Shown one piece after another: positions 16,110 to 28,229 of a DNA stretch of 64,000 nt (position 1 is the stretch's first letter; each line of letters starts with the position of its first letter). The stretch comes from Bacteroidales bacterium (lineage in GTDB: Bacteria > Bacteroidota > Bacteroidia > Bacteroidales > GCA-2748055). Position numbers and translations under genes: made by a program. Location: NCBI GenBank assembly GCA_023138875.1, contig JAGLOO010000057.1, forward strand, positions 1 through 64,000. The letters run 5' to 3'. Below the pieces are notes generated by a model that worked only from the letters and a program-made list of their open reading frames with translations, ran no database searches and was not told the origin of the DNA.

Positions 16110-19100
16110 CTAATATTCATCCCAGCTCTTGATGGAGATATCATTGATATCCATCTTGCATATGGCATATATGAATGCGGATGCCAGCCGGGCATTGGTG
16201 ATGAGCGGAATATTGAAATCGACTGCACCGCGCCTGATGCTGTAATCGTTGGATAACTCATGTGATGAAAGATCTTTTGGAATGTTTATCACAAGGTCTA
16301 TCTTTTTGGCTTTCAGGTAATCCGATACATTGGGTTTCCGGTCTTCATCGGGCCAGGCAAGATCGATAGAATCGATCCCGTTCAGCTGCAGGAACTCATG
16401 TGTACCGTGAGTAGCAAAAAGCTGATAACCCTTATCAACAAGCATTTTGCAGGAATTCACAAGTTCGACTTTTGAGCGCATATCTCCTGTGGAAAGCAGA
16501 ATGTTCTTTTCAGGAATGGTATAGCCCACCGACAGCATGGCCTTCAGGATGGCTTCATAATAGTTATCCCCGATACAACCCACCTCACCGGTGGAGGACA
16601 TGTCGACACCGAGGACAGGATCGGCCATTTTCAAACGGGAGAAAGAAAATTGTGGTGCTTTGCATCCAATGTAGTCCAGGTCGAAAATTGATTTATGTGG
16701 TTTTTCGACTGGAACCTTCAGCATGATTTTGGTGGCCTGGTCTATGAGATTTGATTTCAGGACTTTGGAGACAAAAGGCATGCTTCGGGAAGCCCTCAAA
16801 TTACATTCGATTACCTTGATATCATTGTCTTTCGCCAGGAATTGCATATTGAAAGGTCCGGAAATTTCCAGTGCTTCGGCCAGTTGCCTGGCAATTTTTT
16901 TAATCCTTCGCACCGTTTCAAAATAGATCTTCTGTGGTGGGAAGACTATGGTAGCATCACCGGAGTGTACCCCTGCAAACTCCACATGTTCGGAAATGGC
17001 ATAGGAGAAGAGTTCTCCATCACGGGCCACCGCATCTATTTCAATTTCCTTGGCCTGTTCGATGAATTCTGAGACCACAACCGGGTATTGTTTGGATACC
17101 CTGGCGGCCAGGGTCAGGAATCCTTCAAGTTCTTCCCGGTTGGATACCACATTCATTGCAGCGCCGGATAGTACGTAAGATGGCCTCACCAGCAACGGAA
17201 ATCCAACCTCATCTACAAAACCATAGATTTCATCCATGCTGGAGAGTTCTTTCCATCGCGGTTGATCAATTCCGAGGTTGTCAAGCATCATGGAAAATTT
17301 ATGCCTGTTTTCTGCATTGTCAATGGATTCGGGTGAAGTTCCGAGTATATGTACCCCACAGTAATGCAACCTCATGGCCAGGTTATTGGGGATCTGGCCA
17401 CCCATGGAAACGATAACCCCCCTGGGTTGTTCCAGGTCATAAATGTCCATAACCCTTTCGAAGGAGAGCTCATCAAAATAGAGCCTGTCACACACATCAT
17501 AATCGGTCGATACCGTTTCCGGATTATAATTAATCATGATGGATCTGTATCCCTCTTCATTCACGGTTTTCAACGCATTTACACTGCACCAGTCAAATTC
17601 CACACTTGACCCTATGCGGTAGGCTCCCGAACCCAATACGATTACCGAATGCTGGTCAGGACTGAATTCAATATCATGTTCATTTCCACTGTAAGTGAGG
17701 TAGAGATAGTTGGTCTGGGCAGGGTATTCGGCAGCCAGTGTGTCAATCTGTTTAACACTGGGGAGAATGTTGCGTTTTTTGCGGTGTTCCCTTACCGCCA
17801 GCAGGTCTTTGCTTACATCCCCTTTTATAACCAGGCGTGCTATCTGGAAATCACTGAAGCCCGCCTTTTTGGATTGAAGCAACAGTTCGTCATTCAGATT
17901 TTCGAGGGAATTGATTTGCTCAAGCTTGATCTTCAGGTTAAAGATATTCTTGAGTTTAACAAGGAACCATTTGTCGATCCGTGTAAGTTCATGGATCCGG
18001 TCGATGGAGTAGCCTTCATTGAATGCCTTTTCAATCACAAGTATCCGCATATCGGTGGGTTCCGAAAGCTCTCTGTCAATATTGCCGATGTTCACCTCGT
18101 GGTTCCCTACAAAACCATGCATCCCCTGTCCGATCATACGGATGCCTTTCTGGATTGCCTCTTCGAAAGTACGGCCTATGGCCATCACTTCACCCACCGA
18201 TTTCATGCTCGAATCAATCAATCTGGAAACACCCTGGAACTTATTGAGGTCCCAGCGGGGGATCTTACAGACAATATAATCGAGTGAAGGTTCGAAAAAA
18301 GCGGAGGTGGTTTTGGTGATGGAATTACGCAGCTGGTGAAGTCCAAAACCCAGCGCCAGTTTTGCGGCTACAAAGGCTAGCGGATATCCGGTGGCCTTGC
18401 TGGCCAGGGCTGAAGAACGGGAAAGTCTTGCATTCACCTCAATGACCATGTAATCTTCCGAATGCGGGTCCAGCGCATATTGCACATTGCATTCTCCGAT
18501 GATCCCGATGTGCCTGATGATATCGATGGATAATTTCCGGAGCTTATGGTATTCACTGTTGGTCAAGGTCTGGGAAGGAGCCACCACAATACTCTCGCCT
18601 GTATGGATCCCCAGAGGATCGAAATTTTCCATATTACAGACTGTAATGCAGTTGTCAAACCGGTCCCTCACCACTTCATATTCTACCTCTTTCCATCCTT
18701 TCAGGGACTTTTCTACGAGGATCTGGGGAGAATATGAAAATGCTTTTTTTGCCAGTTTATCCAGGTCATCCTCATTGTAGCAAAATCCACTTCCCTGTCC
18801 TCCAAGGGTATATGCTGCCCTGATGATGATTGGGAAACCGAGTTCACCTGCGGCCTTAAGGGCATTTTCAACCGAGGTTACAGCAATGCTACTGGGTGTT
18901 TTCACATTGATCTCGTCCAGTTTGTCCACAAAAAGCTTCCTGTCCTCTGTATTCATGATGGCCTCGACAGGGGTTCCCAGGACCTGTACATTGTGTTTTT
19001 TCAGCACCCCTGATTCATGCAGTGCCACACCACAGTTGAGTGCAGTCTGTCCGCCAAAAGCGAGCAGGATTCCATCCGGTTTCTCTTTCTCAATGACTTT

Positions 19101-19319
19101 TTCAACGAAAACAGGCGTTATCGGCAGGAAGTAAATTTTATTAGCTACCTCTTCAGAAGTCTGGACTGTGGCTATGTTTGGATTGACCAATACCGTAAAT
19201 ACCCCCTCTTCCCGAAGGGCCTTAAGGGCCTGCGATCCTGAATAGTCAAATTCACCGGCTTCACCGATTTTCAGAGCTCCTGATCCGAGGATTATCACTT
19301 TCTTGATCTGGTCGTTCAT
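16110..19319 (-). CDS. carB: carbamoyl-phosphate synthase large subunit
   Basis: CarB makes carbamoyl phosphate from bicarbonate, ammonia and two ATP for arginine and pyrimidine synthesis. The 1069-residue protein has the two homologous halves, each with an ATP-grasp domain (GSGALKIGEAGEFDYSG in the first, GSGAYRIGSSVEFDWC in the second), and a C-terminal MGS-like allosteric domain from about 935. It is separated from carA by about 8 kb of arginine/proline genes. Its upstream region is shared with argR, so ArgR could control it too. Confidence 0.97.
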   Translation of the reverse strand: MNDQIKKVIILGSGALKIGEAGEFDYSGSQALKALREEGVFTVLVNPNIATVQTSEEVANKIYFLPITPVFVEKVIEKEKPDGILLAFGGQTALNCGVALHESGVLKKHNVQVLGTPVEAIMNTEDRKLFVDKLDEINVKTPSSIAVTSVENALKAAGELGFPIIIRAAYTLGGQGSGFCYNEDDLDKLAKKAFSYSPQILVEKSLKGWKEVEYEVVRDRFDNCITVCNMENFDPLGIHTGESIVVAPSQTLTNSEYHKLRKLSIDIIRHIGIIGECNVQYALDPHSEDYMVIEVNARLSRSSALASKATGYPLAFVAAKLALGFGLHQLRNSITKTTSAFFEPSLDYIVCKIPRWDLNKFQGVSRLIDSSMKSVGEVMAIGRTFEEAIQKGIRMIGQGMHGFVGNHEVNIGNIDRELSEPTDMRILVIEKAFNEGYSIDRIHELTRIDKWFLVKLKNIFNLKIKLEQINSLENLNDELLLQSKKAGFSDFQIARLVIKGDVSKDLLAVREHRKKRNILPSVKQIDTLAAEYPAQTNYLYLTYSGNEHDIEFSPDQHSVIVLGSGAYRIGSSVEFDWCSVNALKTVNEEGYRSIMINYNPETVSTDYDVCDRLYFDELSFERVMDIYDLEQPRGVIVSMGGQIPNNLAMRLHYCGVHILGTSPESIDNAENRHKFSMMLDNLGIDQPRWKELSSMDEIYGFVDEVGFPLLVRPSYVLSGAAMNVVSNREELEGFLTLAARVSKQYPVVVSEFIEQAKEIEIDAVARDGELFSYAISEHVEFAGVHSGDATIVFPPQKIYFETVRRIKKIARQLAEALEISGPFNMQFLAKDNDIKVIECNLRASRSMPFVSKVLKSNLIDQATKIMLKVPVEKPHKSIFDLDYIGCKAPQFSFSRLKMADPVLGVDMSSTGEVGCIGDNYYEAILKAMLSVGYTIPEKNILLSTGDMRSKVELVNSCKMLVDKGYQLFATHGTHEFLQLNGIDSIDLAWPDEDRKPNVSDYLKAKKIDLVINIPKDLSSHELSNDYSIRRGAVDFNIPLITNARLASAFIYAICKMDINDISIKSWDEY

Positions 19320-19425
19320 ATTGATGGCCTAAATATCTGTTACAATGTGGATCGGGGTGACGCTGGTGGGAGGTTCCGGAGTCTATTTAATCCGGGATGT
19401 AAAAGTAAAAAAAAAAGCTGAGAAA

Positions 19426-19458
19426 TTTGCTCAGAATCGAGAAAAATGTATAAATTTG
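19426..19458 (+). promoter_or_regulatory. argR promoter (-33/-7)
   Basis: TTTG (19426-19429), 21 nt, then TAAATTTG (19451-19458), an exact match to the Bacteroidota TTTG/TAnnTTTG promoter. It lies 24 nt before the argR ATG. The -7 element sits inside the first ARG-box-like palindrome. Confidence 0.65.
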
Positions 19459-19483
19459 CATTCATAATGTATAAATATACAAA
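19446..19483. promoter_or_regulatory. pair of ARG-box-like operators
   Basis: Two imperfect palindromes, ATGTATAAATTTGCAT (19446-19461) and ATGTATAAATATACAA (19468-19483), share the left half ATGTATAAAT. Their centres are 22 bp apart, matching the two-turn spacing of tandem ARG boxes bound by one ArgR hexamer. They overlap the argR -7 element and start codon and face carB on the other side. Confidence 0.6.
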
Positions 19484-19962
19484 TGAACAACAGGAATGAA
19501 CGATTGATGGAGACGCGGCGGCTGATCGGCAATCAGAACATTTCAAGCCAGGAGGAGCTGATGAAGCTTCTTGAGAAGCTGGGCTATACGTTGACTCAGG
19601 CCACATTGTCAAGGGATCTGAAATACCTGAAAGTTGCAAAGATGCCCGATGACAGGGCCGGTTATGTTTATATCCTTCCCGATAAGGAACAGTCAGTGGA
19701 GGATGCGAACCTTTCAGGATCAAGTTTCAGTGGATTAATCTCTATTGATTTTGCACAGAGAATGGCCATTTTAAGGACGCTCCCGGGACATGCGAACAGC
19801 ATTGCATACACCATTGACAACCTGGATGCATATGAGATTGCAGGAACCATTGCCGGTGATGATACGATCCTCCTCATTCCACGGGATGGCGTTTCCAGGT
19901 CCGATGTGATCAATTTGCTGAAATTGAGAATGCCGGGTTTGATCAATGAACCTTTAAACTGA
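19483..19962 (+). CDS. argR: arginine repressor ArgR
   Basis: A 159-residue ArgR/AhrC. The N-terminal winged helix (about 1-65) contains the family's TQATLSRDLKYLKV recognition helix, and the C-terminal hexamerisation/arginine-binding domain has the signature GTIAGDDTILLIP. With arginine bound it represses arginine genes. It heads a plus-strand cluster of arginine and proline genes, and its own promoter carries two ARG-box-like sites, indicating autoregulation. The arrangement argR-GNAT-argG is familiar from Bacteroidota. Confidence 0.96.
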   Translation: MNNRNERLMETRRLIGNQNISSQEELMKLLEKLGYTLTQATLSRDLKYLKVAKMPDDRAGYVYILPDKEQSVEDANLSGSSFSGLISIDFAQRMAILRTLPGHANSIAYTIDNLDAYEIAGTIAGDDTILLIPRDGVSRSDVINLLKLRMPGLINEPLN

Positions 19963-19986
19963 TTCCGAAACCTTATTTGAACGATC

Positions 19987-20586
19987 ATGACACAGGATAT
20001 ACAAATCACAATAGCAGCTGCATCGCATATGAATTATGTGCCTGAAATTGAAAAGGCATTGCTTGAAGCGTCCTTTCAGAAAGGGACGGGAATTGCTGTC
20101 CGGAACAATGAGTATCTTACTCAGAAGATACTGGAAGGGAAATCTGTTATCGCATACAGCAAAGGTGGGAAATGGGCAGGGTTCTGTTATATTGAATCCT
20201 GGGGCCACAATAAATATGTAGCCAACAGTGGTTTGATTGTCTCCTCCGAATTCCGGGGAGTCGGACTTGCAAACGAGATAAAAAAGCGGGCACTTGAACT
20301 ATCCACTGAACTGTTCCCGGGAGCAAAACTTTTCGGCCTTACCACAAGCCTTGCTGTGATGAAAATAAACAGCGGACTGGGATATAAACCTGTCACATTC
20401 TCAGAGCTCACCGATGATGACCAATTCTGGAAAGGATGTGAGACATGTCCCTATTATGACATCCTGGTAAGAACCAAGCGGGATGATTGTCTCTGTACTG
20501 CAATGATTATGGACCCGGCGGAAAATCAAAAAGTGAACGGAAAAGTGCATCCAGCCAGGATGAAAGTAAATATTAACCACACCTGA
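19987..20586 (+). CDS. GNAT acetyltransferase, probable N-acetylglutamate synthase-like
   Basis: A 199-residue GNAT protein with the acetyl-CoA loop FRGVGLA (residues 90-96) and following helix. A C-terminal extension carries Cys151/Cys154 (CETC) and Cys168/Cys170 (CLC), which could bind a metal. Its position between argR and argG suggests it makes the N-acyl-glutamate that starts arginine synthesis, since no argA/argJ gene is seen here. That role is inferred from context. It is separated from argR by 24 nt and from argG by 14 nt. Confidence 0.75.
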   Translation: MTQDIQITIAAASHMNYVPEIEKALLEASFQKGTGIAVRNNEYLTQKILEGKSVIAYSKGGKWAGFCYIESWGHNKYVANSGLIVSSEFRGVGLANEIKKRALELSTELFPGAKLFGLTTSLAVMKINSGLGYKPVTFSELTDDDQFWKGCETCPYYDILVRTKRDDCLCTAMIMDPAENQKVNGKVHPARMKVNINHT

Positions 20587-20600
20587 TTAGCAATCTATAT

Positions 20601-21797
20601 ATGGAAAAAAAGATAGTATTATTGGCCTTCAGCGGGGGCCTGGACACAACGTTTTGTGCCATTTATATGGCAAAGGAGAAGCAGATGGAAGTGCATTCTG
20701 CCACTATAAATACAGGTGGTTTCCAATCAGAGGAGTTGGAACAGATTAAAGGGCATGCAAAACGTCTGGGTATTGTTTCCCATGAAGTACTGGATGTTAC
20801 AGCTGACTACTATAACCGGTGCGTACGTTTTATGATCTTTGGCAACGTGCTGAGGAACAGAAGCTACCCATTATCAGTAAGCTCCGAAAGGATCTTCCAG
20901 GCCATTGCCATTGTAAACTATGCAAAGAAAAACGGCTTCAGTTATATTGCCCATGGTTCTACCGCTGCAGGCAATGACCAGGTACGGTTCGACCTGGTGA
21001 TCCAGGTACTGGCTCCCGATATTAAGATTATTACACCCATCAGGGATCTGAAGATATCCCGGGAGGATGAAATCGAATACCTTAGAAAGGAAGGGATTGA
21101 AATGAACTGGAGTAAGGTTAAGTATTCCATTAATCAGGGTATCTGGGGTACAAGTGTGGGGGGAAAGGAGACGCTGACTTCCACAGACGAGCTTCCCGAA
21201 GAGGCATATCCTACCCCGATGAAGGAAAATGGCTCAAAGAGGATTACCATTGGATTTGAAGAGGGTGAACCGGTGAGTCTGAATGGCCAGCTATTTGAAC
21301 CCCTGGTGGTGATCCGGGAGCTTGGGCAACTGGCTTCTCCCTGGGGAATTGGCAGGGATGTCCATGTGGGCGACACCATCATCGGGATCAAAGGACGGGT
21401 TGGATTCGAAGCTGCTGCAGCACGGATCATCATCGACGCACATCTTGCACTTGAAAAACATGTCCTCACACGCTGGCAGCTTCACTGGAAAGAACAGATA
21501 GGAAACTGGTATGGAATGTTTGTCCATGAGGCACAGTACCTGGAACCGGTCATGCGCGACCTGGAGAAGTTTCTGGAATCATCCCAGAAGAATGTGACCG
21601 GTGAAGTGACTATCCGTCTCAGGCCTTATAGTTTCACAGTGACCGGAGTGGATAGTTCGTTTGACCTGATGAATTCATCATTTGCATCATACGGAGAGAT
21701 GAACAGGGCATGGACTGCCGATGAAGTGAATGGGTTTACCAGGATACTGGGCAACCAGCAACGCATATGGTATGCAGTAAATGGAATGGAAGAATAA
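20601..21797 (+). CDS. argG: argininosuccinate synthase
   Basis: ArgG joins citrulline and aspartate with ATP to give argininosuccinate. The ATP-binding loop AFSGGLDTTF lies at the N-terminus and the 398-residue length is standard. It is third in the argR-led cluster. The protein resembles the Bacteroidota ArgG type; substrate-binding residues were not checked one by one. Confidence 0.95.
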   Translation: MEKKIVLLAFSGGLDTTFCAIYMAKEKQMEVHSATINTGGFQSEELEQIKGHAKRLGIVSHEVLDVTADYYNRCVRFMIFGNVLRNRSYPLSVSSERIFQAIAIVNYAKKNGFSYIAHGSTAAGNDQVRFDLVIQVLAPDIKIITPIRDLKISREDEIEYLRKEGIEMNWSKVKYSINQGIWGTSVGGKETLTSTDELPEEAYPTPMKENGSKRITIGFEEGEPVSLNGQLFEPLVVIRELGQLASPWGIGRDVHVGDTIIGIKGRVGFEAAAARIIIDAHLALEKHVLTRWQLHWKEQIGNWYGMFVHEAQYLEPVMRDLEKFLESSQKNVTGEVTIRLRPYSFTVTGVDSSFDLMNSSFASYGEMNRAWTADEVNGFTRILGNQQRIWYAVNGMEE

Positions 21798-21831
21798 ATT
21801 ATATATCAGGAATTTATAAAATTTTAAAGGG

Positions 21832-22617
21832 ATGAAAGTAGGAATCATAGGTGCCGGAAACATTGGTTGTGCTATTGCGAAGGGCCTTGTCGAGTATAAA
21901 AAATTAGCGCCTTCGGATGTGTATCTGTCACGAAAGAAGAATGGCTTATTATCCGATCATAAAAAGGTTGGATTCACTGTGTCGGACAATAAAACAGTTG
22001 CTTCGGAATGTGATATAATCATTCTGGCAGTCCTTCCGGGCCAGGCAAAAGAGGTCATTCTGGAGATAAAATCCGTGCTTAAAAAAGGAGACAAAATTCT
22101 TGTGAGTGTGGTGGCTGCTATCTCCATTAAGGAAATTGCAACATGGAGCGAAAATTCGGTACCGGTGGTAAGGGTCATGCCCAATACGGCGGCTGAGTAT
22201 GGCGCGAGCATGACCTGCATTGCGGGTTTGAACAATGAAACCATCGAAGTGGTAAAAGAGCTGTTTGAACCACTCGGACAGACCATGGTGATCAAGGAAC
22301 AGCTGATGCCGGCTGCTACTATAATGGCCGCATGTGGTATCGCATTTTTTCTGCGTTTTATTCGGGCGGTATCTCAGGGTGGGATCCAGATCGGTTTTCA
22401 TGCAGATGAAGCCGGAAAGATTGCAGCTCAGACAGCACGTGGGGCTGCAGAACTGTTGATGAGAACCGAACATCATCCGGAGACTGAGATTGACAGGGTT
22501 ACAACGCCCATGGGCTGCACCATTGCCGGACTCAATGAGATGGAGCATTTCGGATTGAGTTCGGCAATGATTAAGGGAATTGTGAAATCCTATTCGGGGA
22601 TCAGTGATCTGAAATGA
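21832..22617 (+). CDS. proC: pyrroline-5-carboxylate reductase
   Basis: The last step of proline synthesis, NAD(P)H-dependent. The Rossmann motif GIIGAGNIGCAIAKGL opens the protein, VRVMPNTAAEYG is the family's central motif, and the C-terminal helical dimerisation domain contains the VTTPMGCTIAGL segment (usual form TSPGGTT). At 261 residues it is normal length. It overlaps the following deacylase gene by 4 nt (ATGA). Confidence 0.92.
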   Translation: MKVGIIGAGNIGCAIAKGLVEYKKLAPSDVYLSRKKNGLLSDHKKVGFTVSDNKTVASECDIIILAVLPGQAKEVILEIKSVLKKGDKILVSVVAAISIKEIATWSENSVPVVRVMPNTAAEYGASMTCIAGLNNETIEVVKELFEPLGQTMVIKEQLMPAATIMAACGIAFFLRFIRAVSQGGIQIGFHADEAGKIAAQTARGAAELLMRTEHHPETEIDRVTTPMGCTIAGLNEMEHFGLSSAMIKGIVKSYSGISDLK

Positions 22618-23684
22618 CATGCGGAATAAAACATATTGATCTATTATTGGAGATGCTTTCCATACCTGCTATCAGCAGGAAGGAGCATCAACGGTCAGAT
22701 TTCCTTGAAGGAACCCTGAAGGGCCTTGGTTTTCAGGTTACTAGGATCCACAACAACCTGCTGGTCGGAGATCCGGACCTGGAAGATGCCGGACCGCGAG
22801 TCCTGTTGAATTCACATATGGATACAGTTTCTCCGGCTGAGGGCTGGGTAAGTGATCCTTTTGAACCCCTGGTCGACGGGGACAGGATCGTTGGACTGGG
22901 CAGCAATGATGCAGGAGCCTCGGTGGTGACCATGATGGCTACCTATCAGAACATGTATACAGAAATGAAGGGGCAGATGAACCTGATGCTGTTGATCAGT
23001 GCTGAAGAGGAAATATCCGGATCCAATGGCATCTCGTCCGTTCTTGACCGGATGGGCAATCTGGATGCGGTTATAGTTGGTGAACCAACCGGGATGCAAC
23101 CAGCTGTAGCTGAACGTGGATTGATGGTACTTGATGGGGAGGTAAAAGGGAAGGCAGGTCATGCCGCCCTGAATGAGGGTGAAAATGCCATTTACAGAGC
23201 AATGAAGGATATTGAATCCATTGCAGGCCTGGACTTTCGAAACCAATCAGCATGGCTTCCGCAACCCGGGGCCCAGGTTACCATGATCTCTGCAGGGACC
23301 GGCCATAATGTGGTTCCGGATGTGTGCAGGTATGTGGTGGATGTGAGGAGCAATGACAGGTACGGAAATGAGGCCATGCTGGAGCGGATCCGTTCGGTCT
23401 GTATGGCCGATCTAAAACCACGTTCCACACGGTTGAAACCATCTTCTCTCAATGAGGATCACTTTCTCATGGAAGCCATCATTGCATGTAAATTTCATCC
23501 ATTTGGTTCTTCAACACTGTCGGATATGGCCCTGATCCCTTTCCCTGCTATAAAAATAGGACCGGGCGACTCGGCGCGATCTCATACAGCAGGAGAATAC
23601 ATACTGATGAGTGAACTGGAAGATGCGGTTGGGATCTATTGCCGGCTCCTGGAAGCTCTGAAAACAAATATGAAGCAAAATTAA
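22614..23684 (+). CDS. M20-family deacylase, ArgE-like (acylornithine or acylcitrulline)
   Basis: A 356-residue M20 metallopeptidase-fold enzyme. The zinc and catalytic positions are visible: His and Asp in SHMDTV, Asp in SNDAG, the Glu-Glu pair in SAEEEISG, a Glu in VGEPTG and a C-terminal His in RSHTAGE. A dimerisation domain is inserted at about 170-280. In Bacteroidota the acyl group is often carried as far as citrulline (N-acetyl/N-succinyl-ornithine transcarbamylase route), so this may deacylate citrulline rather than ornithine. No transcarbamylase lies in the window to decide. Confidence 0.82.
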   Translation: MTCGIKHIDLLLEMLSIPAISRKEHQRSDFLEGTLKGLGFQVTRIHNNLLVGDPDLEDAGPRVLLNSHMDTVSPAEGWVSDPFEPLVDGDRIVGLGSNDAGASVVTMMATYQNMYTEMKGQMNLMLLISAEEEISGSNGISSVLDRMGNLDAVIVGEPTGMQPAVAERGLMVLDGEVKGKAGHAALNEGENAIYRAMKDIESIAGLDFRNQSAWLPQPGAQVTMISAGTGHNVVPDVCRYVVDVRSNDRYGNEAMLERIRSVCMADLKPRSTRLKPSSLNEDHFLMEAIIACKFHPFGSSTLSDMALIPFPAIKIGPGDSARSHTAGEYILMSELEDAVGIYCRLLEALKTNMKQN

Positions 23685-23696
23685 AGAGAGGTGCTT

Positions 23697-25043
23697 ATGA
23701 ACATGTGGGACAAGAACATTTCAACAGAAGAGAGGATCCTGGTATTTACTACAGGAAAAGATCCCATGTATGATTTGCAACTGGCACCATATGATGTGCT
23801 GGGATCCATGGCGCATGCCATCATGCTGGCAGAGGTTGGATTGATTGAAAAGGATGAGGCCGGCAGGCTGATCGGTGAACTTGTTCATATATATGAAAAA
23901 GCAGAAAAGGGAGAACTGGAACTGGAACCCGGCATGGAAGACATTCATTCACAGGTGGAGATGATGCTCACGTCCACGCTTGGAGATCTTGGTAAAAGAA
24001 TACACACAGGCCGGTCAAGGAACGACCAGGTCATGGTGGATATCAAGCTTTTTTTGCGCGACCAGATCGGGGAACTGGCGAAAGAGGTATTGTCCCTTGG
24101 AAAAGCACTTGGCCAGCAGGCCGAGTCGAACCGGGAGGTCTTGATCCCGGGGTATACACACATGCAGGTGGCCATGCCCTCATCTTTTGGATTGTGGTTT
24201 GGCGCTTACGCCGAAGCACTGGCTGATGACCTGAAATTTCTGCTTGGGATCCATTCGGTGGTTAATCAGAACCCATTGGGATCTGCAGCTGGTTTTGGAT
24301 CATCCTTTCCGGTGGACCGGGAGCTGACCACGCGGCTGCTTTCGTTTGAAGACATTCATGTTAGTTCGGTCAATGCACAGATGAACCGTGGAAAAACGGA
24401 ATGGTATGTGGCAACCGGGATCAGCGCTGTTGCTTCAACCATTGCCCGCCTGGCCATGGATGCAGTATTGTTCATGGGCCAGAATTTTAATTTTCTTTCC
24501 CTGCCGGAAGAACTTACTACGGGATCAAGCATTATGCCCCATAAGAAAAACCCGGATGTTCTGGAACTGCTCAGGGCCAGGTGCAACCGGCTATCACAGA
24601 TTCCCTCAGAAATTACAGCTGTTACTGGGAATCTTATATCAGGGTACCACAGAGATTTTCAGATCCTGAAGGAGATTCTTCACCCCGCCCTTGAGGAATT
24701 AAAGAACTGCCTGTTGATGATGCAATACGTCGTTGAGAGAATCATAGTAAAAAAGGATATCCTTGAGGATCCGGCCTATCAGTATATCTACTCTGTTGAG
24801 GAAGTTAATAAGAAGGTGAAAGAAGGAATTCCCTTCAGGGATGCGTACAGGGAAGTGGCAGAGGAGATAGACAAGGACCGTTACAGGCCCGGCCGGGACC
24901 ACTCCTATACCCACCTTGGAAGTATAGGAAATCCCGGTATAGCGGAAATTATGACAAAACTTGAACTGGCATATGGTGCGTTTCGATTTGTCGATACTTC
25001 AGAGGTAGTAGATTCATTGAGTAATTATTACATGAAATCATGA
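23697..25043 (+). CDS. argH: argininosuccinate lyase
   Basis: ArgH splits argininosuccinate to arginine and fumarate. The fumarase/aspartase-superfamily signature GSSIMPHKKNPD is intact, as is the N-terminal HTGRSRNDQ substrate loop. The ATG at 23697 is preferred; a GTG at 23691 would add two residues. Its end overlaps proB by 4 nt, coupling arginine and proline genes in one transcript. Confidence 0.96.
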   Translation: MNMWDKNISTEERILVFTTGKDPMYDLQLAPYDVLGSMAHAIMLAEVGLIEKDEAGRLIGELVHIYEKAEKGELELEPGMEDIHSQVEMMLTSTLGDLGKRIHTGRSRNDQVMVDIKLFLRDQIGELAKEVLSLGKALGQQAESNREVLIPGYTHMQVAMPSSFGLWFGAYAEALADDLKFLLGIHSVVNQNPLGSAAGFGSSFPVDRELTTRLLSFEDIHVSSVNAQMNRGKTEWYVATGISAVASTIARLAMDAVLFMGQNFNFLSLPEELTTGSSIMPHKKNPDVLELLRARCNRLSQIPSEITAVTGNLISGYHRDFQILKEILHPALEELKNCLLMMQYVVERIIVKKDILEDPAYQYIYSVEEVNKKVKEGIPFRDAYREVAEEIDKDRYRPGRDHSYTHLGSIGNPGIAEIMTKLELAYGAFRFVDTSEVVDSLSNYYMKS

Positions 25044-25879
25044 CACACAGAAAATATTTAAAAGAGAAAAAAAAGATCGTGGTCAAGGTGGGAACCAGCC
25101 TGCTGGCCTATGATAACGGGAAGATAAATCTTCAGCGCATGGAAAAACTGGTCAGGGTACTCGCTGATTTGCATAACAGCGGGAAAGAAGTAATCCTGGT
25201 CTCATCGGGAGCAGTGGGAGTTGGAGTAGGGATGCTTGGGCTGGATAAAAAACCAGAGGACCTGGTGAAGAAACAGGCACTGGCTGCCATTGGCCAGGCG
25301 GGTCTGATCAGGTTGTATCAGAAGTTTTTCGATGAGTATAACACTACGGTGGCCCAGCTGTTGCTGACCCGCGATGGTATTGAGAATAGTTTGCGCCGGA
25401 AGAATGCAAGAAATACTTTACTTGAACTTATCAGGATGGGGATTATCCCTGTGGTGAACGAGAATGATACGGTCATTACCGATGAGATTGAGTTTGGAGA
25501 CAACGATACCCTTTCGGCTGCGGTGGCCACACTGGTTCACGCGGATCTGCTGCTTATCCTGACCGATACCGACGGAGTGTTTACTTCTGATCCACATATC
25601 AATCATTCGGCCCGGAAAGTTCCCAAAGTAATGAAAGCCAGTGATGATCTGAAAGATGTGGATGTGAATGGCTCTTCAAAATTGGGATCGGGCGGAATGG
25701 GTTCCAAAATTGCAGCTGCCGAGCTGTGTCGCGAACACAATGTGGACGTGGTCATTGCAAACGGATCGGATCCCGCCACCATTCTGGATGTGCTTGAAGG
25801 CAAGGATCTGGGAACGTTTTTCGTAAGCGATGCCACTGATAGGTTGAAAGTGAAAAGTCAAAAATTGAAAGCAGGATGA
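25040..25879 (+). CDS. proB: glutamate 5-kinase (short form, no PUA domain)
   Basis: ProB phosphorylates glutamate for proline synthesis. The amino-acid-kinase core is complete: KVGTSLL near the N-terminus, SSGAVGVG, NENDTV, FGDNDTLSA and GSGGMGSKI. At 279 residues it lacks the C-terminal PUA domain of E. coli ProB (367 residues). Such short forms are known. It overlaps argH and proA by 4 nt each. Confidence 0.94.
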   Translation: MTHRKYLKEKKKIVVKVGTSLLAYDNGKINLQRMEKLVRVLADLHNSGKEVILVSSGAVGVGVGMLGLDKKPEDLVKKQALAAIGQAGLIRLYQKFFDEYNTTVAQLLLTRDGIENSLRRKNARNTLLELIRMGIIPVVNENDTVITDEIEFGDNDTLSAAVATLVHADLLLILTDTDGVFTSDPHINHSARKVPKVMKASDDLKDVDVNGSSKLGSGGMGSKIAAAELCREHNVDVVIANGSDPATILDVLEGKDLGTFFVSDATDRLKVKSQKLKAG

Positions 25880-27120
25880 ATGAATTAATTGAGATGGGGA
25901 AGAGGGCCAGGAAAGCATCGGGCCAGCTGGCGAATTTGAATACAGACCAGAAGAACGAAGTGCTGTTGTTGGTTGCAGTCCTGCTGGAAAAGCATGCGGA
26001 TCTAATACTGGATGCCAATGCAAAGGACCTGGAACTGGGAAAGGGAATGGGACTGAAAGGAGCCATAGTTGACAGGCTGACCCTTTCCGGGGATCGAATT
26101 ACCGGTATTGCCGAAGGGTTAAGGGAGATCGTTCAGTTGGAGGATCCCATCGGGGAGATTGTGGAGATGAAGAAGCGCCCAAATGGGCTGCTTATAGGGA
26201 AAAAGCGGGTCCCGTTGGGAGTTGTGGGTGTGATCTATGAGTCGAGGCCCAATGTGACCGCAGATGTGGCCGGTCTCTGCATAAAAACGGGCAATGTGTG
26301 TCTGCTCAGGGGTGGGAAGGAAGCTTTTCAATCCAATAATGCCATCGTAAGTATTTTTCATGAAGCCATTGAACATTGCGGACTTGATCCAAATATGGTA
26401 CAATTGGTGCAGAATACGACCCGGGAAAGCGCTGTGGCCATGATGAAACTGAATGCATACCTGGATATCCTGATCCCAAGGGGCGGAGCCGGATTGATCC
26501 GGACGGTGGTCCAGAACAGTACGGTTCCAGTAATTGAAACAGGAGTGGGAAACTGCCATGTGTATGTAGATGAATTTGCTGACCTGGCTAAAGCAGTATC
26601 CATTGTATACAATGCCAAGACCCATCGTCCGGGTGTTTGCAATGCAGCTGAGAGTCTCCTGGTGCATGAAAAAGTGGCTGATATAGCTTTACCTGCTATC
26701 GGGAAAGCTCTTTCAGAAGGAGGTGTAGAGATCCGGGGAGACGAAATCACCTGCAGGCTGATTCCGGAAGCAAAGATAGCCGTGGAAAAGGATTGGGCAA
26801 CAGAATACCTGGACCTGATCATCAGCTCGAAGGTGGTGGAATCCGTTGAAGCAGCTGTGGACCACATAAATACTTATGGATCTATGCATTCGGAGAGCAT
26901 TATCACCGAGAACTACAGCCATGCACAGTACTTTCTCGACAGGGTGGATGCCGCTGCTGTCTATGTGAACGCTTCCACCAGGTTTACAGATGGTTTTGAA
27001 TTCGGATATGGAGCTGAAATCGGAATCAGCACACAAAAACTGCATGCCCGTGGTCCCATGGGATTGAAAGAACTTACCACAAATAAATATGTGATCTACG
27101 GAAGCGGACAAACGCGCTAG
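25876..27120 (+). CDS. proA: gamma-glutamyl phosphate reductase
   Basis: NADPH-dependent reduction of glutamyl phosphate to glutamate semialdehyde. An aldehyde-dehydrogenase-fold protein with the catalytic cysteine in HRPGVCNAAES and the family motif VIYESRPNVT. The 414-residue length is standard. It is the last gene of the argR-led cluster and converges on carA with a 20-nt gap in which I see no clear terminator. Confidence 0.96.
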   Translation: MNELIEMGKRARKASGQLANLNTDQKNEVLLLVAVLLEKHADLILDANAKDLELGKGMGLKGAIVDRLTLSGDRITGIAEGLREIVQLEDPIGEIVEMKKRPNGLLIGKKRVPLGVVGVIYESRPNVTADVAGLCIKTGNVCLLRGGKEAFQSNNAIVSIFHEAIEHCGLDPNMVQLVQNTTRESAVAMMKLNAYLDILIPRGGAGLIRTVVQNSTVPVIETGVGNCHVYVDEFADLAKAVSIVYNAKTHRPGVCNAAESLLVHEKVADIALPAIGKALSEGGVEIRGDEITCRLIPEAKIAVEKDWATEYLDLIISSKVVESVEAAVDHINTYGSMHSESIITENYSHAQYFLDRVDAAAVYVNASTRFTDGFEFGYGAEIGISTQKLHARGPMGLKELTTNKYVIYGSGQTR

Positions 27121-27140: not shown

Positions 27141-28229
27141 TCAGCTTTGTGCTTTTTGACTCTCTTTGATGCTTTCCAGGAAAACATCAAAAAGGTGTGC
27201 TGTATCGGTAGGGCCACCGGAGGCTTCCGGGTGGAACTGGGTGGAAAAGAATGGTTTTTCCAGGTGTTTCATCCCTTCGTTGGTATTGTCATTGAGATTG
27301 ATAAACAGGGGTTCCCATTCTGCAGGCAGGGTTTCGTTGTTGATGGCAAAACCATGGTTTTGCGAAGTGATGTACGCTTTGTCCGATCCAACCTCAAGCA
27401 CCGGCTGGTTGTGGCTCCGGTGTCCATACTTCAGTTTATAGGTGTCGGCGCCTGCGGCCAGGGCCATCAGCTGGTTGCCCAGGCATATCCCGAATATGGG
27501 GGTATCCGATTGAAAGGATTTAGAAAGGGTCTGGATGGTTGCATTGCACTGCTTGGGGTCGCCCGGACCATTTGAAATAAATAAACCGTCGTACTGTTCC
27601 TGACTGATGTCATAGTCCCAGGGTACCCTGATCACCGTGGTATCCCTTTCAAGGAGAAAGCGGATGATGTTGTATTTCACCCCGCAATCCAGCAGGAGGA
27701 TCCTGTACTTTCCAGTGCCATATACCTTCTTTTCGCCGATGCTTACCTGTGCCACAAGGTTCTCCTGATTCGGATTGTAGGATGCTGGTTCCTGTTGATC
27801 AAATACAACTTTCCCCAGCAAGGATCCTTTCTCCCGTAAAAGTTTTGTAATCATACGGGTATCCACATCGAAGAGGCCCGGAATTCGGTTTTGCTTCAGC
27901 CAGTCGCCCAGGCTGCGTTCAGCATTCCAGTGGGAGTATTCTGTCGAGTAATCAGAAATCACCAGGGCTGAAATATGCAGTTTATCGGATTCGAAAAACT
28001 TGTAGAGATCATTTTCCGAGTCTTCCCGGGGGACTCCGTAATTGCCCACAAGTGGATAGGTAAGGACCAGGATCTGGCCTTTATAAGATGGATCGGTAAG
28101 GCTTTCAGGGTATCCGGTCATGGCCGTGTTGAATACAACTTCACCGGCAATGCTTTCCTCATATCCAAAAGATTTTCCCTTGAATGTAGATCCGTCTTCC
28201 AGGATCAGTGTGATGGGGTTAAAATCCAT
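27141..28229 (-). CDS. carA: carbamoyl-phosphate synthase small subunit
   Basis: The glutaminase subunit that feeds ammonia to CarB. The class I amidotransferase nucleophile is Cys249 in GICLGNQ, with the His/Glu pair in FHPEASGGP near the C-terminus. Its N-terminal domain contains the typical FNTAMTGYPESLTDPSYKGQ segment. It follows the thioredoxin-like gene by 16 nt on the same strand and is about 8 kb from carB. Confidence 0.96.
   Translation of the reverse strand: MDFNPITLILEDGSTFKGKSFGYEESIAGEVVFNTAMTGYPESLTDPSYKGQILVLTYPLVGNYGVPREDSENDLYKFFESDKLHISALVISDYSTEYSHWNAERSLGDWLKQNRIPGLFDVDTRMITKLLREKGSLLGKVVFDQQEPASYNPNQENLVAQVSIGEKKVYGTGKYRILLLDCGVKYNIIRFLLERDTTVIRVPWDYDISQEQYDGLFISNGPGDPKQCNATIQTLSKSFQSDTPIFGICLGNQLMALAAGADTYKLKYGHRSHNQPVLEVGSDKAYITSQNHGFAINNETLPAEWEPLFINLNDNTNEGMKHLEKPFFSTQFHPEASGGPTDTAHLFDVFLESIKESQKAQS

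Follow-up and report, generated by a model that had tools for sequence, protein, structure and literature searches.

The half-site of the ARG box in Escherichia coli is TGAAT, and in Bacillus the regulator AhrC doubles as an activator of catabolic genes. The E. coli ArgR operator, as described in the available part of one account (PMC6640053), comprises two 18-bp semi-palindromes that lie 3 bp apart and overlap the promoter of the ArgR-controlled operon. For B. fragilis, the accessible portion of a further paper (PMC7366714) gives a promoter consensus of TTTG at -33 and TAnnTTTG at -7. Bacteroidetes ArgR sites were not described in any paper found by our literature search, which covered open-licence papers.

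The argR gene described here (19483-19962, + strand, 159 aa) lies in a window, by which we mean the whole 64-kb stretch of DNA that was analysed, within contig C53 of a Bacteroidales genome of 4.79 Mb in 87 contigs. A gap of 163 bp separates it from the divergent carB (16110-19319, - strand; named by eye from its sequence), and at the argR-proximal end of this gap are two 18-bp imperfect palindromes, ARG box 1 (19445-19462, + strand, AATGTATAAATTTGCATT) and ARG box 2 (19466-19483, + strand, AATGTATAAATATACAAA), each with six of its nine base pairs symmetric and separated from one another by the 3-bp gap CAT. An initial annotation had proposed two ARG-box-like palindromes overlapping the argR promoter, and both are present; their centres, however, are 21 bp apart, equal to two helical turns, and not 22 bp as it had stated. 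The sequence ATGTATAAAT, which it gave as the start of both palindromes, does occur in each, but when the boxes are delimited as 18-mers it begins at the second base (19446 and 19467).

The predicted promoter of the argR-argG-argH operon is overlapped by this pair. Its -7 element, TAAATTTG (19451-19458, + strand), fits TAnnTTTG and is embedded in box 1, while box 2 ends at 19483, the A of the argR ATG, both as previously claimed. A candidate -33 element, TTTG (19426-19429, + strand), is separated from the -7 element by a 21-bp spacer, although it is not kept in all relatives. Transcription probably starts near 19464-19466, in which case box 2 would cover the start and the short 5' leader.

Other features were sought in the same region. 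An RNA element in the leader was rejected, Rfam giving no match within 19200-20100 even at E values up to 1, as was a structured carB leader, whose folding is no better than that of shuffles (z 0.00); a terminator-like hairpin at 19418-19434 (- strand) was not seen by eye in the relatives compared and was treated as chance. Nothing resembling a promoter was reported at the boxes by a sigma-70 scan, which is what one expects in this phylum.

Scored with a matrix built only from nine family loci of other genera, the box pair reaches 43.5. The next best pair in the window scores 7.2, and the maximum was 15.1 in 200 dinucleotide shuffles of the window and 16.8 in 5000 shuffles of the intergenic stretch with any spacing from 18 to 26 bp. 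It is the pair that is remarkable and not the lone box, since the single-box pattern TGYATAAATATRCA, allowing up to one mismatch, has 11 matches genome-wide and its reversed form 8. A 39-position sequence profile trained on the 25 family sites (R1) found one strong full pair in this genome (E 2e-10), the next match being partial (E 0.065), among the 150 of 3947 first-look candidates that were scored.

The pair is closely associated with argR across the family. An argR match is found in 25 of 28 family genomes, and the pair, at its 21-bp pitch, lies upstream of argR in all 25 family loci, a count that leaves out L027, a contig-edge fragment. Over these loci the mean column identity is 0.93 for box 1 and 0.88 for box 2. 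It drops to 0.52 across the 3 bp between them and to 0.54 over the 12 bases that follow, and lies at 0.60-0.78 over the 60 bases that precede. Between box 2 and the first matched argR codon the spacing differs among loci, the extremes being an overlap of 3 bp and a distance of 19 bp. Scans of the family genomes with R1 (150 first-look candidates scored per genome) detected a single strong site, at argR, in every one of these 25 genomes, and no strong site in G004, G016 and G022, the three in which no argR match was found. High scores at the 25 family sites are expected, since R1 was trained on them; the informative findings are that no second full site turned up and that three genomes lack both the pair and an argR match. 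In G018 and G019 this site is matched on the opposite strand too, as a palindrome would be.

The conservation of box 1 is explained in part by the promoter, a point that weighs against an operator: TAnnTTTG lies inside this box, and its bases T, A, T, T, T and G are invariant in all 30 sequences of the upstream alignment (A2). The repeats might then represent an AT-rich Bacteroidetes promoter without a regulator, conserved through its contacts with sigma factor, but we regard this as improbable in the extreme. Box 2 lies downstream of the -7 element and yet is conserved at the level given above, those conserved bases of box 1 that do not belong to the -7 element (ATG on the left, CA on the right) recur in box 2, and the 21-bp pitch is fixed.

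The pair could also be the operator of another regulator that controls the cluster. In favour of this, the half-sites keep TG-N-AT but read TGYAT and not the TGAAT of E. coli: counting both strands of 50 boxes, 99 of the 100 half-sites have T or C at position 5. Co-occurrence of the pair with argR in 25 of 28 family genomes, and their joint absence from the other three, nevertheless makes it very unlikely that a different protein is involved, as does the layout of the boxes, which together with positions G4, A6, T7, A12 and T13 matches the E. coli description in the available part of PMC6640053, except for T12 in box 1.

The protein encoded by argR has both domains of an arginine repressor (Arg_repressor and Arg_repressor_C), with its N-terminal DNA-binding domain (PF01316, 64.2 bits) and C-terminal arginine-binding domain (PF02863, 79 bits) both above cut-off; its score against TIGR01529, 124 bits, falls 6 bits below the cut-off of 130.45. 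It matches the solved ArgR/AhrC structure 1f9n (E 2.1e-27) and carries the conserved TQATxSRD stretch and a GTIxGDDT motif. The TQATxSRD and GDDT motifs have roles in DNA and arginine binding.

Downstream of argR, and on the same strand, seven further genes follow with gaps of -4 to 35 bp: a GNAT-like N-acetyltransferase gene (19987-20586, 199 aa; a weak match to NF005840, E 7.6e-4, and no Pfam match at 0.001), argG (argininosuccinate synthase, 20601-21797), proC (pyrroline-5-carboxylate reductase, 21832-22617), a gene for an M20-family deacylase (ArgE/DapE-like, 22614-23684; best NCBIfam models shown below their cut-offs), argH (argininosuccinate lyase, 23691-25043, with a GTG start as listed), proB (glutamate 5-kinase, 25040-25879) and proA (glutamate-5-semialdehyde dehydrogenase, 25876-27120). 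The named enzymes score above cut-off against TIGR00032 (argG), TIGR00112 (proC), TIGR00838 (argH), TIGR01027 (proB) and TIGR00407 (proA). Convergent with this operon is carA (27141-28229, - strand), named by eye from its sequence. The arg/pro cluster is the same in eight other family regions, save for single genes missing from the open-frame listing in three of them (the GNAT gene in L157, argR in L152 and proB in L150), and carA lies away from the cluster in L153, L154 and L157.

We conclude, with high confidence, that the argR promoter carries its ArgR operator in these two palindromes, through which arginine-loaded ArgR would repress argR and the co-directional genes. The basis for this is what the sequences show: both boxes and the distance between them, the conservation of the pair together with argR, the domains of ArgR and the tight gene order. 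Binding, arginine dependence, repression, the transcription start and co-transcription are what we infer from them. When arginine is plentiful, an arginine-loaded ArgR hexamer would bind both boxes, covering the -7 element in box 1 and the transcription start in box 2, and would so block RNA polymerase; the genes repressed would be argR, the GNAT gene, argG, proC, the M20 gene, argH, proB and proA. Autorepression of the arg/pro cluster, which the initial annotation had predicted, is thus strongly supported by the layout, the phylogenetic footprint, the co-occurrence and the two-domain ArgR.

The same arrangement extends beyond the family. ArgR matches are found in 43 of 118 genomes of the order, and the family matrix was applied to 28 new argR loci from the order, spacings of 18-26 bp being allowed. 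The best pair is spaced at 21 bp in 23 of these loci, several of which score low, against a shuffled expectation of ∼12%; the shuffled controls are flat over spacings, at about 0.10-0.12 each, and the remaining five loci have a best spacing of 20, 23 or 26 bp. The score is reached by none of 300 shuffles in 21 of the 28 loci, and by three or fewer in 24. TGAAT half-sites occur in some members of the order, for example at L072, L073 and L094.

These order-level loci also bear on the divergent gene. It had been suggested that the same boxes may repress carB; such control would extend to the supply of carbamoyl phosphate. In its favour, carB sits divergently beside argR in every one of the 25 family loci, and ArgR targets the carP2 promoter of E. 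coli according to the available part of PMC6640053. The box pair, however, begins upstream of carB, at a distance of ∼50 bp from its inferred start, and does not overlap the candidate carB -7 element TACTTTTA (19400-19407, - strand), which reads TATTTTTG in L018, L020, L021 and L022. Neither carB nor carA is present in the fetched locus in 20 of the 28 order loci, yet 11 of these 20 keep a 21-bp argR pair scoring above 20; the boxes stay with argR where its upstream neighbour is not carB, and therefore belong to argR. There is no further box within the window, and so none at carA. Control of carB by these boxes thus seems unlikely to us. We also observe that a TGTAAAAATA-like sequence and an A-tract at 19400-19420 are kept in most of the 25 family loci, and read on the minus strand as the candidate carB -7 element.

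The motif had further been expected at other arginine promoters of the same genome. No boxes were found there at carA, the OTC-carbamate kinase genes, the ornithine aminotransferase gene or the argD-like aminotransferase gene, although with most arginine genes within one operon this comparison is nearly empty. Near the OTC-carbamate kinase genes, pyrB, the asd-like gene and four class-III aminotransferase genes the maximum score is 8.9, against 23.7 and 21.9 for the window boxes. Among the promoters compared, strong predicted ArgR sites are limited to this operon in this genome. The lack of boxes at other arginine genes reads as a consolidated regulon, since most of the arginine genes found are in the operon, and we do not treat additional sites of this kind as a defining feature; the absence of a second full operator among the candidates scored means that the genome has no independent regulon member, and is counted against identifying the pair as an operator.

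No argB, argC or acyl-ornithine transcarbamylase gene (argF') was found in this genome. None of its six AA_kinase matches resembles argB: they are proB, a carbamate kinase and four others, which we read from their length as aspartokinases and pyrH. The sole match to the argC model is below cut-off and resembles asd, and the two transcarbamylases are an OTC adjoining the carbamate kinase and, by eye, pyrB. The genome does encode an ornithine aminotransferase (TIGR01885, 687 bits); it also has an argD-like gene, which scores below the TIGR00707 cut-off. The OTC-carbamate kinase and ornithine aminotransferase genes sit elsewhere in the genome (C54:69520-71496 and C4:67818-68972, respectively, of G000). 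Loss of the acylated route is likely in this genome; elsewhere in the family it is the cluster regions that were compared. The GNAT-like and M20 deacylase genes remain in the arg operon (19987-27120) with proB-proA, despite the absence of argB, argC and argF'. A more distant member of the order, G199, has argC, argD, argF' and argB inside the same argR cluster; in that cluster an open frame between argD and proC (L155:8707-9372) has a weak match to NUMOD4, a motif usual in homing endonucleases.

One possibility, which we put forward tentatively, is that throughout the family ArgR controls an arg-pro operon that lacks the acylated route. It would then gate the formation of ornithine through proB-proA and a reversed ornithine aminotransferase, followed by OTC, ArgG and ArgH, with the whole regulon served by a single operator. 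The missing acyl-route genes beside an operon predicted to be ArgR-controlled raise a testable metabolic question.

We also searched 42 genomes with a broader profile, R2, for which 13 sequences came from the family and 17 from the order. Its top match is directly upstream of argR in only eight of the 24 ArgR-bearing order genomes outside the training set (G183, G193, G230, G241, G256, G265, G271 and G274). G249 has two ArgR genes (C57:24142 and C12:53214); within the 200 bp upstream of the C57 copy there is no good box pair. Away from argR, 12 stretches were examined from ∼55 non-argR matches. In G207 a 21-bp pair (28.1) precedes proB by 20 bp, some 17 kb away from argR, and in G284 a 21-bp pair (32.0; L194:5197-5235) lies 51 bp before a citrate synthase gene, itself placed after proB and before an apparent glutamate synthase gene; the argR pair of that genome scores 30.5. 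Both would fit the glutamate-arginine branch, and in G284 ArgR may reach into glutamate supply; having been chosen from the best matches, the two sites are suggestive only. Other non-argR matches fall inside genes or before seemingly unrelated ones, namely ATPase-like, TonB-like and cysteine-synthase-like genes (named by eye). R2 matches near E 0.01 are thus mixed with ordinary promoters.

Set beside the known systems, the predicted operator has two 18-bp boxes, a 3-bp gap and promoter overlap in common with that of E. coli, as described in the available part of PMC6640053. The promoter, in contrast, is of the Bacteroidetes type, and box 1, which doubles as the -7 element TAnnTTTG, accordingly has T at position 12. 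The half-site differs too, positions 5 and 14 being mostly Y and R instead of A and T. The closest solved proteins are the Bacillus AhrC/ArgR structures 1f9n, 5cj9 and 1b4a, with the TQATxSRD stretch common to both; unlike AhrC, with its activation of catabolic genes, the ArgR described here has no box that we could find at the OTC-carbamate kinase genes. The order-wide Bacteroidales ARG-box motif, a half-site AATGYATAW paired at 21 bp and fused to the -7 element, is usable for mapping ArgR regulons in the phylum. This is the textbook ArgR operator arrangement in a bacterial group where it has hardly been described; its variant features are the TGYAT half-sites and a -7 element inside box 1, and the layout is otherwise of the E. 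coli type.
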